A stretch of 39,467 bases of DNA from IMG/VR virus record IMGVR_UViG_3300020410_000004, positions 1 through 39,467 of that record; one strand, given 5' to 3'. Below are positions 189 through 12,842 of the stretch, piece by piece (position 1 is the first letter of the stretch; each line of letters opens with the position of its first letter). Made by a program: the position numbers and the translations under genes. Origin of the DNA: a virus. The notes beneath the pieces are model-generated. The model did not search any database, was not told the DNA's origin, and saw only the letters and a program-made list of their open reading frames with translations.

Positions 189-395
189 CTAGCCATCCAT
201 CCCGACTAGGCACTGATAGCCGACAAACACCACTTCGGAATCCGGCGTTGACGGTCGGGTTTCGAGAAACGCCAGAGATGCCGCGCCGCGCGCATGGCAT
301 TGGGCCATGGCTTCGCTGGGAAGGTATTGCGCCTCTCTGTGGCACTCTGCCGTGCCAGCGCTTGCTAGGCAGACCGTGACGGCGAACAGGATCAT
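189..395 (-). CDS. Small secreted protein at the end of the lysis block
   Basis: This 68-residue protein has an N-terminal hydrophobic stretch (residues 1-13) ending in a small-residue motif (AGTA) that resembles a signal-peptidase I site. The remainder contains three cysteines (C18, C33 and C62), which fits a periplasmic protein. The ATG start at 395 gives a 4-base ATGA overlap with the lipoprotein gene upstream; a GTG at 404 is possible but overlaps more. It is the last leftward gene. It may assist lysis or cell-envelope modification, but this is inferred only from position, and the family is not recognised. Confidence 0.6.
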   Translation of the reverse strand: MILFAVTVCLASAGTAECHREAQYLPSEAMAQCHARGAASLAFLETRPSTPDSEVVFVGYQCLVGMDG

Positions 396-589
396 TCGGA
401 GCACCCCGCCCTGAGCCGTGACAGCAGCACGGCTCCGGATGCCTGAGACACAGGCCCGCCGTCTTCGATCAGCGCCCCGGCATGGCTCTTGCGGTCCTGC
501 CGGGTGCCGTCGCAGATAGCGCTGTCACTGAGAGAGGGCGCGCAGCCGATCAAGCACAGCGCCAGAGTCACCACGATCAATGCCTTCAT
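392..589 (-). CDS. Small lipoprotein, candidate o-spanin (Rz1-like)
   Basis: This 65-residue protein has a short hydrophobic signal followed by a lipobox-like L-I-G-C at residues 14-17, so Cys17 would be the lipidated residue and the mature protein about 49 residues. Its start at 589 lies inside the preceding membrane-protein gene in another reading frame (overlap 525-589), the classic embedded arrangement of Rz/Rz1 outer-membrane spanin genes. It would join the outer membrane to the inner-membrane partner and cause membrane fusion at lysis. The mature part is not proline-rich as in lambda Rz1, so the assignment rests on the lipobox and gene layout. Confidence 0.65.
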   Translation of the reverse strand: MKALIVVTLALCLIGCAPSLSDSAICDGTRQDRKSHAGALIEDGGPVSQASGAVLLSRLRAGCSE

Positions 590-743
590 GGTCCATCCTT
601 TCCAGCGTGTCGGAATACGCCTCTGCGGCCTGCACAGCGGCCCTGTGGCGCGCATCCCGTGCCCCGGACCACCAGCCCGCCCCGAAGGCCAGCACGGCGG
701 CACAGGCCAGCGCAATGGGCCAGCGCAGGAATGCCGGGATCAC
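525..743 (-). CDS. Membrane-anchored protein, candidate i-spanin (Rz-like)
   Basis: This 72-residue protein has one N-terminal transmembrane segment (about residues 7-25) and a charged, probably helical periplasmic tail with an ARDARHRAAVQAAEAYSD-type stretch. This is the layout of an inner-membrane spanin, though shorter than lambda Rz (153 residues). GTG 743 overlaps the previous stop as GTGA and follows a G-rich ribosome site; GTG 752 and 758 are alternatives. The candidate o-spanin begins inside it. The pair would act after the endolysin. Sequence similarity to named Rz families was not established. Confidence 0.6.
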   Translation of the reverse strand: MIPAFLRWPIALACAAVLAFGAGWWSGARDARHRAAVQAAEAYSDTLERMDHEGIDRGDSGAVLDRLRALSQ

Positions 744-928
744 GTCCGCCACCCCCACCGCTTGGCCAGCGCATAGGCGCCCTCTGTCGCAATGCCCACG
801 GCCCCGCCGATCACGACAGCCACCACGGCCACCACGTCAGCATCCGACGCAAGCTGCATCCCCACCGGCACGCCGAACAGCGCACCGGCCCCGTAGCGCA
901 GGACGATCCGCGCGAGTGGTCCCATCAT
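740..928 (-). CDS. Holin-like small membrane protein
   Basis: This 62-residue protein has two likely membrane helices: about residues 8-27, and 31-50, which is rich in Val, Ala and Gly. It ends in a basic-aromatic tail (KRWGWRT). A strong Shine-Dalgarno GGAGG lies 5 bases before ATG 928; GTG 934 would sit on that site, so it is rejected as the start. Its place directly before the spanin-like pair and after the endolysin suggests a class II-type holin that releases the endolysin. Other small membrane proteins at 2220 and 2494 are rival holin candidates. Confidence 0.6.
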   Translation of the reverse strand: MMGPLARIVLRYGAGALFGVPVGMQLASDADVVAVVAVVIGGAVGIATEGAYALAKRWGWRT

Positions 929-971
929 TTCCACCTCCGTGGTTGGGGCGACCGGAGCCGCCCCGAGTTGG

Positions 972-1235
972 TCACAGATGCGCCGTGGCGGCTGCGACAG
1001 CCATCATGGACGCTTTCTGAATGTCGGTGATCGCGATTGCCGCCTCACGCGCGCCCGGCCCCTTAGCATCGCGCAGCGCTTCACATTCGGAAATCAGCGC
1101 GGCGGCGATGAACTTGATCCGCTGCACATCGGCCAGACCGGACGGGTTGAACTTGTAGCGCACCAGCGCGGCGGCGGAATCGGAAACGTGGGTTTCTGCG
1201 GGCGTCTCTTCGCCCATGTGGAGTTTGATATGCAT
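972..1235 (-). CDS. Acb2/Tad1-like hairpin protein, candidate anti-CBASS/anti-Thoeris sponge
   Basis: This 87-residue soluble protein has a variable N-terminus (residues 1-26), then a pattern ending in two long helices: a YKFNPSG start, a helix with RIK, AAALI and CEAL (about 37-56), a short turn, and a helix with REAAIAIT...ASMMAVAAAT (about 62-85). This resembles the Acb2/Tad1 hairpin family as I know it, phage proteins that sequester cyclic nucleotide signals of CBASS and, in some members, Thoeris. ATG 1235 has AAGGAC 6 bases upstream. It lies between the endolysin and holin-like genes and so is probably expressed late. The family call comes from pattern recognition, not a search. Confidence 0.65.
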   Translation of the reverse strand: MHIKLHMGEETPAETHVSDSAAALVRYKFNPSGLADVQRIKFIAAALISECEALRDAKGPGAREAAIAITDIQKASMMAVAAATAHL

Positions 1236-1289
1236 GCCAGTGTCCTTGTGCTGACAGTCGCGGTTGACGCTCCGCGCGGCGATACGGCT

Positions 1290-1835
1290 TTATGCCGAAT
1301 TCCATTTAAACAGCCTCGCCAGCGCCTTGACGAGCGCCGCCAGCCAGCCCTGCGGCACCTCAGCCGGGTCCGCGTGCCTGATCGGCGGCGGGGTCAGGAA
1401 TAGCGCCTTTTCCTCCTCACGCCGACGCACAAGGCCGCGCAGCTTCGTTCCGCCCGCCTTGTTGAACCACGTCAGCGCCTCAGCCGCGCCCGCGTTATCA
1501 CCCGCATTGAAGCGGCGCAGAGCGGTGGAATTGCGGAACGCGGTCACGCCGATATTGTAGGCCAGAGACACGAACGCGCCGAATTGGTTTTCGTTCGGGG
1601 TCCGCGTGAACATGGGCCGGATTTGCGCGCCGAAGCGGTCTAGCCCTTCCGCAAGCATTTTCTCCGCCTGCTCCTGCGTCCACCTGTCTCCGGGCTGCAC
1701 GCCGGGGCCGTATCCGGCTTGATTGGTGTATCCGTAGCCGATAGTCAGAACGCCGACCGGATCACGATAGGCGGACAGTTCCAGCCCCTCGAATTCCTTA
1801 ACAAGATCGACGGTAGCTTGATTGATGCGCGTCAT
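1290..1835 (-). CDS. Endolysin, GH24 lysozyme (T4/P22-type)
   Basis: This 181-residue muramidase cleaves the MurNAc-GlcNAc bond of peptidoglycan. The GH24 triad is visible with exact family spacing: Glu16 in FEGL, Asp25 in RDP and Thr31 in LTIGYG (E-x8-D-x5-T). The body includes AFVSLAYNIG and ends near residue 148. A proline-rich linker then leads to an amphipathic, basic C-terminal helix (GWLAALVKALARLFKW). There is no signal peptide or SAR segment, so release depends on a holin. ATG 1835 is chosen over the longer reading frame because AAAGGGG lies just upstream and GH24 homology begins there. Confidence 0.92.
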   Translation of the reverse strand: MTRINQATVDLVKEFEGLELSAYRDPVGVLTIGYGYTNQAGYGPGVQPGDRWTQEQAEKMLAEGLDRFGAQIRPMFTRTPNENQFGAFVSLAYNIGVTAFRNSTALRRFNAGDNAGAAEALTWFNKAGGTKLRGLVRRREEEKALFLTPPPIRHADPAEVPQGWLAALVKALARLFKWNSA

Positions 1836-2124: not shown

Positions 2125-2200
2125 GCTGTTGTAGCTCAACAGGTAGAGCGCCTGCCTTGTAAGCAGGATGTTGCGGGTTCGATCCCTGCCAGCAGCACCA
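2125..2200 (+). tRNA. tRNA-Thr (anticodon TGT)
   Basis: A complete 76-base cloverleaf can be folded by eye. The acceptor GCTGTTG pairs with CAGCAGC (one G-T). The D stem is GCTC/GAGC with loop AACAGGTA, and the anticodon stem CCTGC/GCAGG has loop CTTGTAA, giving anticodon TGT at 2158-2160. The variable loop has 5 bases and the T stem GCGGG/CCTGC has loop TTCGATC. The 3' CCA is encoded. It reads ACA codons, which should be rare in a high-GC host. It lies on the strand opposite the surrounding late genes and ends 20 bp before the stop of the 2220-2534 gene. Confidence 0.95.
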
Positions 2201-3096: not shown

Positions 3097-5444
3097 GACG
3101 GGGTCACGCTGGCCGATCCATCAACCAAGTCCCATATGCCGGTGGCCCCGGTGGCGCGGCACACATAGCGGGCCCGGGTGTCCGTCGCCTGCACCTGCGC
3201 CCCCGCTTGCTTGATCGACGCATCGGCATTGACCGCGTGCGTCGCATCGGCGATCTGCGCCGCCGTCGCGCGCCATGCGCCAAAGAGGCTGACCGTGCCG
3301 CCGCCCGATTGAGCGGTGTCATAATCGCCCAGGACGGCACCCAGCGCCGCCTTGGCGCCGTTGGCATGAGACACACCGATCACGCCAGTGGCGCCAGACC
3401 GGCGCTCAACCTCAATTTCACCGCATCGCGCGACCGCTGTGCTGGAGGACAGCCGGAGCGCCGCCTTGTCCGTCGCGACCCCGTAGAACCGTGGCGTGCG
3501 GGAGATGTTGAGCTCGGCATCGCCAGCCGCCACCGTGACATCGATGACGTGGTTGGGTGAGCCTCCCCCACCCTGATCGACAGTGCCGTATGCACCTCCG
3601 ATAATATCCACACGACGCGCACCAGTGATATCCACTGCTGCGCCCTGACCTTCCATCGCGCAGTCATCGAGCGTGACATGCGCGCCCGGCGCCTGAATCG
3701 TCAGGCCGTGTTCCCGCGACGTGCCGGTCGTCACGACTTTGCGCATGGAAACGCGACCAACACCGCCAGCGACCCGCGAATATACCTGTAGCGATTGCGA
3801 CGTGAGGTCGTTCTCGCGTCGCGCGTCGATGTTAATGTCATCCAAGAGGATGTTATCCACCTGCCCGGCGTAGCCGATGCCCTCGGAGTTATCGACCACG
3901 ACACTGCGGTTGGTGCCCCAGCCGGAGATGCCGCGCATGGTGATGCCCTGCATGCGGGCCAGCATTGAGTAATCCTCCTGCGGCCCGCCCATTGCGATGA
4001 TTGCCGAGCGTGCGAACGTCGAATACCCGACGCAATCGCTATAGATGCTGTCGAGGGTATCCCAGTCATATTCAATTAGCGCCGGATTTGACCCCGGCAC
4101 AAACTGCAATGCGTCATCCCCCGAAAGCACATGACACTGGCTGATCCGCCAGCCGCGCCCGCCGATGACGCGAATGCCCCCTGTACCAGAGGTCGCAGCC
4201 GAGGTGGCGCTGCGGATGTTGTGCAGGGTGTTGTCGTCGCCGCCCAGAAGCATGGCGAGGCCGCCGCCACCGGCTTCAGAGTTGTAATGGCCGAGAATCC
4301 GCATGTTGCGCAGGCTGCAGCTCGACCCGAAAAGCTCGAACAGATGGCCGCTCTTGGTGGCATCATCAAAAGCCCCCCAGATGCCGCCCGAGATGTCCAG
4401 ATCATCGGCCCACGCGAAAAGGGTTGCGTGGCAGGTGATGCCAGTAATGGTCTCGGTCAGCCGGTAATCCAGTGTGAAATTGTTGCCGCTGACCGCCGTA
4501 ACCTCGGCAATGACCCCCTGCAGATAGTATTTGGCATCCGAGCAATGCCGGATCAGCAACTTGTCACCCACCACAGGGGGTGATGCAGCACCAGCCAGCG
4601 CCGCCGAGGTGACGACAAGCGAGCCACCAGCGGTGCCCGCGAGCGTCGCGGATGTGTCTCGCAGGTCGCGGCTTTTGTCGCGCTGCATCAGACGCGTGCC
4701 GCCGGACGAGACTTTGCGCATCTGCGTGCCCGGCCCCAGCGTCATCTTCAGGCCCTTGTAGGCGACCAGAGCAGTTTCGCACGAAATGAGCAGATTGTGA
4801 TCGTCGCGCAGCCCGATCCCTTCGGGCACCAATTCCTGCGAAAATCCGTTGATCTCCTCAGCGGCGTCATTGACGGGGTTATATCTGCGCCCGACGAGAT
4901 CGCGCAGCGTGACGCCATAGAGGCGGCGGCGCTGCATAGACGCCACCAGAGCAGGAGCAAAAACATCGCGGCCAGTTGGGTCGGCAGCGTCAGTGGCCCC
5001 TACTGCGGTGGCCGATGTTGAGTCATCTGCGACGTCCAGTTTCACATCGCCTGCCGTGGTCACGTCGCTATCTGTTGCGGTTGGCGCTGACTCGCGATAA
5101 ATCAAGCCGTCCTGCGCCTGCCAATACGCCCCCTCCTTGCGGGAAACCTCTGTGCTTGAAATGAGGTCGCTTGCATCATCATAAACTCGCTGAGGATCGA
5201 CCTTGACTACCTCAACCCACTCATCGCCGCCACGCTGCGCCGTAAGGGTGTAGACCCCCGGCGGAACATAGAAAGTCGCAGCGCCGTCGCTGTCCGAGAC
5301 AAGGGGCTGCGTGACGGTCGTGGTCATGGCCGCATCGCTGTAGATCGTCACCAGCGCGCTGTTCAGTTCGTTCCGCACATACAGATCGGCAAGCGGGACG
5401 ATACTGCCGTTGCCATCCCGGACGGTGCGCTTGAATAGTGCCAT
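3093..5444 (-). CDS. Tail spike with right-handed beta-helix (receptor-binding)
   Basis: This 783-residue protein probably binds or degrades a surface polysaccharide. Residues 1-85 form an attachment domain with a transthyretin- or carboxypeptidase-regulatory-like pattern (VPLADLYVRNELNSALVTIY, then GAATFYVPPGVYTL). Residues about 300-600 carry the stacked Gly/Asn/Asp pattern of a pectin-lyase-like beta-helix (CSLRNMRILGHYNSE, NTLHNIRS, GWRISQCHVLSGDDALQF). The tail end is Ala/Gly-rich. ATG 5444 is chosen because GGGGA lies upstream and the longer frame overlaps the preceding gene. No catalytic residues could be assigned. Confidence 0.85.
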   Translation of the reverse strand: MALFKRTVRDGNGSIVPLADLYVRNELNSALVTIYSDAAMTTTVTQPLVSDSDGAATFYVPPGVYTLTAQRGGDEWVEVVKVDPQRVYDDASDLISSTEVSRKEGAYWQAQDGLIYRESAPTATDSDVTTAGDVKLDVADDSTSATAVGATDAADPTGRDVFAPALVASMQRRRLYGVTLRDLVGRRYNPVNDAAEEINGFSQELVPEGIGLRDDHNLLISCETALVAYKGLKMTLGPGTQMRKVSSGGTRLMQRDKSRDLRDTSATLAGTAGGSLVVTSAALAGAASPPVVGDKLLIRHCSDAKYYLQGVIAEVTAVSGNNFTLDYRLTETITGITCHATLFAWADDLDISGGIWGAFDDATKSGHLFELFGSSCSLRNMRILGHYNSEAGGGGLAMLLGGDDNTLHNIRSATSAATSGTGGIRVIGGRGWRISQCHVLSGDDALQFVPGSNPALIEYDWDTLDSIYSDCVGYSTFARSAIIAMGGPQEDYSMLARMQGITMRGISGWGTNRSVVVDNSEGIGYAGQVDNILLDDINIDARRENDLTSQSLQVYSRVAGGVGRVSMRKVVTTGTSREHGLTIQAPGAHVTLDDCAMEGQGAAVDITGARRVDIIGGAYGTVDQGGGGSPNHVIDVTVAAGDAELNISRTPRFYGVATDKAALRLSSSTAVARCGEIEVERRSGATGVIGVSHANGAKAALGAVLGDYDTAQSGGGTVSLFGAWRATAAQIADATHAVNADASIKQAGAQVQATDTRARYVCRATGATGIWDLVDGSASVTPS

Positions 5445-12450: not shown

Positions 12451-12842
12451 CAGACCACCGCAGCCTTGGTCACTTCACCGACGCTTTGCAGCGTGCCCGC
12501 GAAGGTCCGCTCGCCGTTGTAAGGCGCCCCGATGTTGTAACCGGGCTGGAATTGCCATGTGCCGGTGAAGGTTTCGAGCGCGCCGTTGGTGATGACCGCC
12601 GGAAACTGCGTTCCTGCAAAAGCCAGATCTGTCAGCGTGGACGTTTTCAGAACGCCATCCAGCGCGATTGTCACGTTCATGACGTTGAATGTCTCGTCAA
12701 GCGTGGTCGTCCATCCATTATCGCCTGCCGTGGTCACGTCCACAAGCTCGCCGTTGAATGTGACCGTCTTGGCGCGCAGTTCGTCGTTAATGGGGGTTCC
12801 ATCAATCGACACAAGGACCGCTCTACCGTTTGCCGCTGCCAT
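12450..12842 (-). CDS. Major tail tube protein
   Basis: This 130-residue beta-rich protein begins AAANGRAVLVSIDGTPINDELR and contains TTAGDNGWTTTLDETFNVMNVTIALDG, FTGTWQFQPGYNIGAPYNGE and a closing strand GTLQSVGEVTKAAVV. Size, content and position between the tail terminator and the G/GT chaperone fit a siphophage tube protein forming hexameric rings. The ATG at 12842 is preceded by AAGGAGGG. Confidence 0.85.
   Translation of the reverse strand: MAAANGRAVLVSIDGTPINDELRAKTVTFNGELVDVTTAGDNGWTTTLDETFNVMNVTIALDGVLKTSTLTDLAFAGTQFPAVITNGALETFTGTWQFQPGYNIGAPYNGERTFAGTLQSVGEVTKAAVV

Follow-up and report, generated by a model that had tools for sequence, protein, structure and literature searches.

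It was found that an 87-aa ORF reads from 1235 to 972 on the minus strand of the window, by which I mean the whole stretch of DNA that was analysed, a virus record of 39,467 bases. The sequence-only reading had placed an 87-residue protein here without stating the strand; the protein was confirmed, and the plus-strand frame at 972-1235 encodes a different sequence. The sequence of the protein is MHIKLHMGEETPAETHVSDSAAALVRYKFNPSGLADVQRIKFIAAALISECEALRDAKGPGAREAAIAITDIQKASMMAVAAATAHL. Between 189 and about 30.7 kb, the genes called lie on the minus strand, and recognizable packaging, head, and tail genes lead into the lysis genes, among which the ORF is found (Table 1). An endolysin gene lies immediately upstream. 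It had been proposed that the ORF is located between endolysin and holin-like genes. The endolysin is clear (PF00959, 3e-42), but the holin and spanin calls downstream of the ORF are weak. The placement among lysis genes itself holds and recurs in relatives. The Rz1-like ORF has a relative of 53% identity downstream of the acb2 gene in another locus (L007). In the window, the Rz-like and Rz1-like ORFs form an overlapping pair in different frames (392-758, minus strand). A tRNA-Thr gene lies on the opposite strand in the late region, between the endolysin gene and two small hydrophobic ORFs. The window evidently comes from a phage of Rhodobacteraceae, as relatives are found in Oceaniglobus, Paracoccus, Oceanicola, and one uncultured bacterium of the Rhodobacteraceae.

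Table 1. Features around the 87-aa ORF, in window coordinates
Feature	Position	Strand	Evidence or remark
Rz1-like lipoprotein ORF, LIGC lipobox	392..589	-	sequence; overlaps the Rz-like ORF in another frame
Probable Rz-like i-spanin	525..758	-	weak, phrog_1327 E 0.0025
Small hydrophobic ORF, holin-like from its position alone	740..934	-	no convincing family match
Likely Acb2-type sponge gene, 87 aa	972..1235	-	PF24729, AF2, relatives, tree
5′ leader, three tandem hairpins, moves with the gene	1236..1299	-	covariation; model R1
Hairpin 3	1236..1255	-	77% of cells paired, 2/5 pairs compensatory
Hairpin 2	1259..1276	-	5/5 pairs compensatory, 100% of cells paired, none broken
Hairpin 1	1285..1297	-	4/4 pairs compensatory, 82% of cells paired
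Endolysin (phage lysozyme)	1290..1835	-	PF00959 3e-42; phrog_7 1e-56
tRNA-Thr (TGT)	2125..2200	+	

Family and predicted fold of the 87-aa protein

The protein matches the Pfam model of the Acb2/Tad1 hairpin (PF24729) at 40.2 bits, well above the curated cut-off of 27 bits. The same model recovers T4 Vs.4/Acb2 at 70.3 bits as a positive control, finds no match in 14 control genomes, and is matched by 9/9 sequences of the first alignment and by all relatives tested. No PADLOC or NCBIfam model matches the protein, and a tblastn search with it gave no match in the annotated phage collection. With a divergent relative as the query, Flavobacterium phages were matched at 35%. The protein has conserved counterparts of 49-91% identity in 13 further distinct loci. 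AlphaFold2 (AF2) predicted β-strands at residues 2-5 and 13-16, forming an N-terminal β-hairpin, then a short helix (19-24) and two long antiparallel helices (35-56 and 62-83), which make a helical hairpin; the pLDDT rose from 90.5 to 96.0 when 40 sequences were used instead of 9. Thus, the Acb2/Tad1 hairpin pattern noticed in the sequence-only reading was borne out by the Pfam match and by the predicted fold. The RIK (39-41) and REAAIAIT (63-70) motifs lie in the helices to which they had been assigned. The "proline-glycine start" is absent; the actual motif is FNPSG at residues 29-33, behind an N-terminal part of 28 residues.

In the BFVD library of viral structures, the two best matches of the model are Acb2/Tad1 hairpin proteins (probability 1.00). 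A Foldseek search of the monomer against the PDB, which is uninformative for a short hairpin, gave 7uq2 at E 8.5 and 5.1, not significant and among unrelated helical proteins. Against PDB sequences, neither direct phmmer nor a 9-sequence profile found Acb2. A profile of 40 relatives weakly found Acb2 and Tad1 entries (E 0.03-1.1, among some noise), namely 9ptq "Acb2 homolog 43", 7uq2 Vs.4, Tad1 chains, and p26. Altogether, membership in the Acb2/Tad1 hairpin family is firm.

Is the protein an Acb2 or a Tad1? Tad1 (PDB 7UAV, 8KBE) shares the Pfam hairpin and has N-terminal β structure, a four-stranded sheet in a protein of about 125 aa (PMC12043709). The predicted β-hairpin is placed ahead of the helical hairpin as that domain is in Tad1, and the profile search weakly brings up Tad1 chains, so that the protein could be taken for a minimal form of Tad1, its N-terminal β element reduced, that acts as a sponge of the Thoeris signal (gcADPR). 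However, this is improbable, as the protein has 87 aa and only two short strands, and its relatives without the extension (L057, L058, and the L078 group) are plain hairpins of Acb2 size. The 87-aa protein is Acb2-like in size and probably not a Tad1, whose N-terminal β-domain is larger.

A phylogenetic tree opposes 14 sequences with an MH...-type N-terminal extension to 27 FNPS-type proteins, the branch between them having a support of 98/99. The window gene therefore falls in a new, distinct clade of the Acb2 family characterized by the extension. The FNPS-type Acb2-like proteins of viral contigs (MTKGEYRVGINFNPS..., L078-L156) are its nearest relatives outside the clade, at 33-41%. They share the FNPS motif, Lys41, Arg63, mostly Thr70, and the interface Ala residues; they lack the β-hairpin extension and have Gly for Arg26 and Lys for Ala81. 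In two of these loci, a Tad2-like protein (PF11195) is the immediate neighbour of the FNPS-type sponge, placing two sponge families side by side.

T4 Acb2 (Vs.4, PDB 7UQ2) has the same PF24729 hairpin at 21% identity and lacks the added β-hairpin. In T4 Acb2, Y8 and F82 stack on the ligand, Y8, H11, K23, and R79 make polar contacts, and L29, A66, A73, and A77 form the hexamer interface (PMC10097602). By sequence alignment, Y8, H11, K23, R79, and F82 correspond to F29, S32, K41, A81, and T84 of the window protein, and the interface residues to L47, A68, A75, and A79. F29 keeps the aromatic character of the base-stacking Y8 ahead of the hairpin, K41 matches the phosphate-binding K23, and at the interface L47 and A75 are conservative. 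F29, K41, R63, A68, and A79 are invariant in 40/40 sequences, and the clade keeps the T4 hexamer-interface positions as well as the Thr and the Lys. T70, which is invariant within the clade, corresponds to T68 of T4 Acb2, where a T68M change lowers binding (PMC12657230). The basic residue of T4 R79, a cGAMP contact, is absent: Ala is found at position 81 in 12/13 clade members counted, including the window, and Lys in 27/27 wider relatives. This position is one pocket contact and does not define the family by itself. T4 F82, a second residue in contact with cGAMP, is likewise not kept, Thr84 standing in its place; both replacements speak against the Acb2 reading. Conversely, Arg26 is invariant in the clade, where the wider relatives have Gly. 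From the sequences, the gain of Arg26 and the loss of the basic residue 81 may reflect a moved phosphate contact.

The Acb2 of Pseudomonas phages (p26; PDB 8H2J, 8IXZ) has size and hairpin in common with the window protein. The Arg/Thr pair of its last helix (R67/T74) corresponds to R63/T70, and its Lys26 to Lys41. R67, the PaMx33 residue that matches R63, is presumably a contact of cyclic trinucleotides. As differences, its C-terminal Arg and its Tyr11 are replaced by Ala81 and Phe29, and the segment separating these two pocket residues is three residues shorter. Since Arg63, Thr70, and Lys41 are retained and the basic residue at the T4 Arg79 position is lost, the window protein might prefer cyclic trinucleotides over dinucleotides of the cGAMP type, as these residues weakly suggest.

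Loci of the clade and the structured 5′ leader

In the clade, 12 of the 14 distinct loci lie in lysis or head/packaging modules. Six adjoin lysis genes, either an endolysin or amidase gene (the window, L002, L003, L007, and L010) or a holin gene (L023). Another six belong to head/packaging modules, after the major capsid gene (L005, L006, and L022), after the terminase gene (L004 and L062), or before the head-tail connector gene (L001). The remaining two (L021 and L024) lie elsewhere. In the wider FNPS family, early genes predominate among the neighbours (excisionase/HTH, PhoH, ribonucleotide reductase, and ssDNA-binding protein), a few endolysins also being present, and T4 vs.4 adjoins regB, not lysis genes. 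Thus, late-module placement is a trait of the clade, not of the whole family. The CATOSB01 assembly has seven sponge copies (L010-L016), identical where translated, as a Mu-like transposing phage might leave.

The recurrent position beside endolysins or holins (6/14 loci) could also mean that the hairpin fold is reused in the lysis cassette for a role other than that of a sponge, for example as an antiholin or a lysis-timing factor. This is unlikely. Head/packaging modules are equally frequent, the sequence shows no obvious membrane segment, and the interface and binding positions of a sponge are conserved. Moreover, a related phage (L176) has retained its lysozyme and lost most of the sponge gene. 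Its naturally decayed copy (12509-12645), reduced to the leader, the ATG, and roughly the final 14 codons, precedes the intact start of a lysozyme gene whose product resembles that of L003.

When the window was compared with L001, L002, and L007, DNA similarity was found to begin about 50-70 bases before the ATG and to end at or just past the stop codon. Because the similarity is confined to the leader and the gene, the sponge gene moves between unrelated phages as a single-gene cassette, often with its leader. A leader of roughly 64 bases before the ATG is present in 7/14 clade loci (the window, L001, L002, L003, L004, L007, and L023), and it has three tandem hairpins. The loop of hairpin 1 holds the stop codon of the endolysin gene (1290-1292). 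Hairpin 2 is CGCGG-AGCGTCAA-CCGCG, with a covarying stem and a conserved loop, AGCGUCA, which is shortened in L004. Hairpin 3 holds the Shine-Dalgarno sequence AAGGA (1247-1243), seven bases upstream of the sponge ATG, within a 10-base loop, and its stem finishes at the start codon. GUC of loop 2 could pair with GAC of loop 3, and both are missing in L004.

From the alignment alone, RNAalifold recovers all three hairpins, with 11/14 pairs compensatory. The leaders show 86.7% pairing, vs. 65.5% after shuffling and 48% or less after sliding, and a covariation of 0.619 vs. 0.231 (shuffles) and 0.156 (slid). These numbers are not probabilities, since there are few sequences, some of them related, and similarity guided the choice of the alignment. 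Folding energies of single leader sequences are mostly no better than those of shuffles, and the case for the structure is one of covariation. A model of the leader (R1), run on 43 sources, matches the acb2 start in seven distinct lineages at 58-83 bits, and no other match exceeds 22 bits; the other seven clade loci lack this leader. In 397 genomes of the host family, the leader gives only two strong matches, both at acb2. A search of Rfam (4227 families) gave no match to the leader; it returned the tRNA and, overlapping it, a single match below threshold.

That the leader is a coding extension of the gene was rejected, as there is no in-frame upstream start codon in the window and the alignment has gaps of 1 and 2 bases. 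A plain intrinsic terminator is not favoured, as a T run follows hairpin 2 only in L004 and L023, and the loop is conserved and the tail is not. Once in the host-family genomes (L187 in G330:C54, around 5010-5313), hairpins 1 and 2 precede a 73-aa ORF that is unrelated to the sponge gene and lies in a lysis region, upstream of muramidase-like and spanin-like genes. The leader element may therefore belong to cassettes and not only to the sponge gene. Given the Shine-Dalgarno sequence in a hairpin loop and an AGCGUCA loop able to form the GUC-GAC pairing, I tentatively propose, as a possibility that is far from certain, that the leader is a cis-acting RNA setting the timing or strength of translation of a mobile counter-defence gene from a late transcript.

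Interpretation as a probable Acb2-type sponge

The family, the predicted fold, the interface and binding positions, the gene order, the recurrence in late modules, and the transfer with a leader are what was observed at these loci. A sponge function is likely. The best explanation, to which I give a probability of about three in four, is that the 87-aa protein is an Acb2-type sponge that forms a hexamer, binds CBASS cyclic oligonucleotides, and is made late. The helical hairpin protein would probably assemble into a hexamer, which would bind the cyclic oligonucleotide alarm signals of the host CBASS without degrading them, and possibly those of type III CRISPR as well. Effectors such as nucleases and membrane breakers would then be kept unfired until phage release, to the presumed benefit of the phage. 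It is probable that the sponge is made from a late transcript, because its gene directly follows the lysozyme gene and precedes the remaining genes of the lysis region, all on one strand. That the gene is instead a passive remnant that has lost binding, as the loss of the T4 Arg79 equivalent and the decayed copy in L176 might hint, is very improbable in view of the residues that stay invariant across 49-91% identity, the intact reading frames in 14 loci, the conserved Shine-Dalgarno sequence, and the leader conserved in seven.

Genes of the CBASS type are present in the host family. SMODS was found in 39/387 genomes and SAVED in 21; in 16 genomes, the two lie no more than 6 kb apart. PF24729 proteins are present in 18/397 genomes of the family, and their co-occurrence with SMODS in the same genomes is not significant (4/18, p about 0.10).

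What is new is a clade located in lysis and head/packaging modules, a leader of covarying hairpins, and swapped binding residues. To my knowledge, the structured leader is the first conserved RNA element known to be attached to an anti-CBASS gene. If it acts as proposed, the leader would serve as a portable module of expression, allowing the sponge gene to work wherever it is inserted in a phage genome, and it might conceivably sense the state of infection. The swap of binding residues, Arg26 gained and the basic residue 81 lost, offers a concrete test of specificity. One would expect a phage to need its sponge early, ahead of the accumulation of alarm signals. Capsid mutations that evade CBASS have been reported (PMC10419184). 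The clade, with its repeated placement in late modules, raises the question of whether late products set off some CBASS signalling, which would then have to be restrained until lysis.
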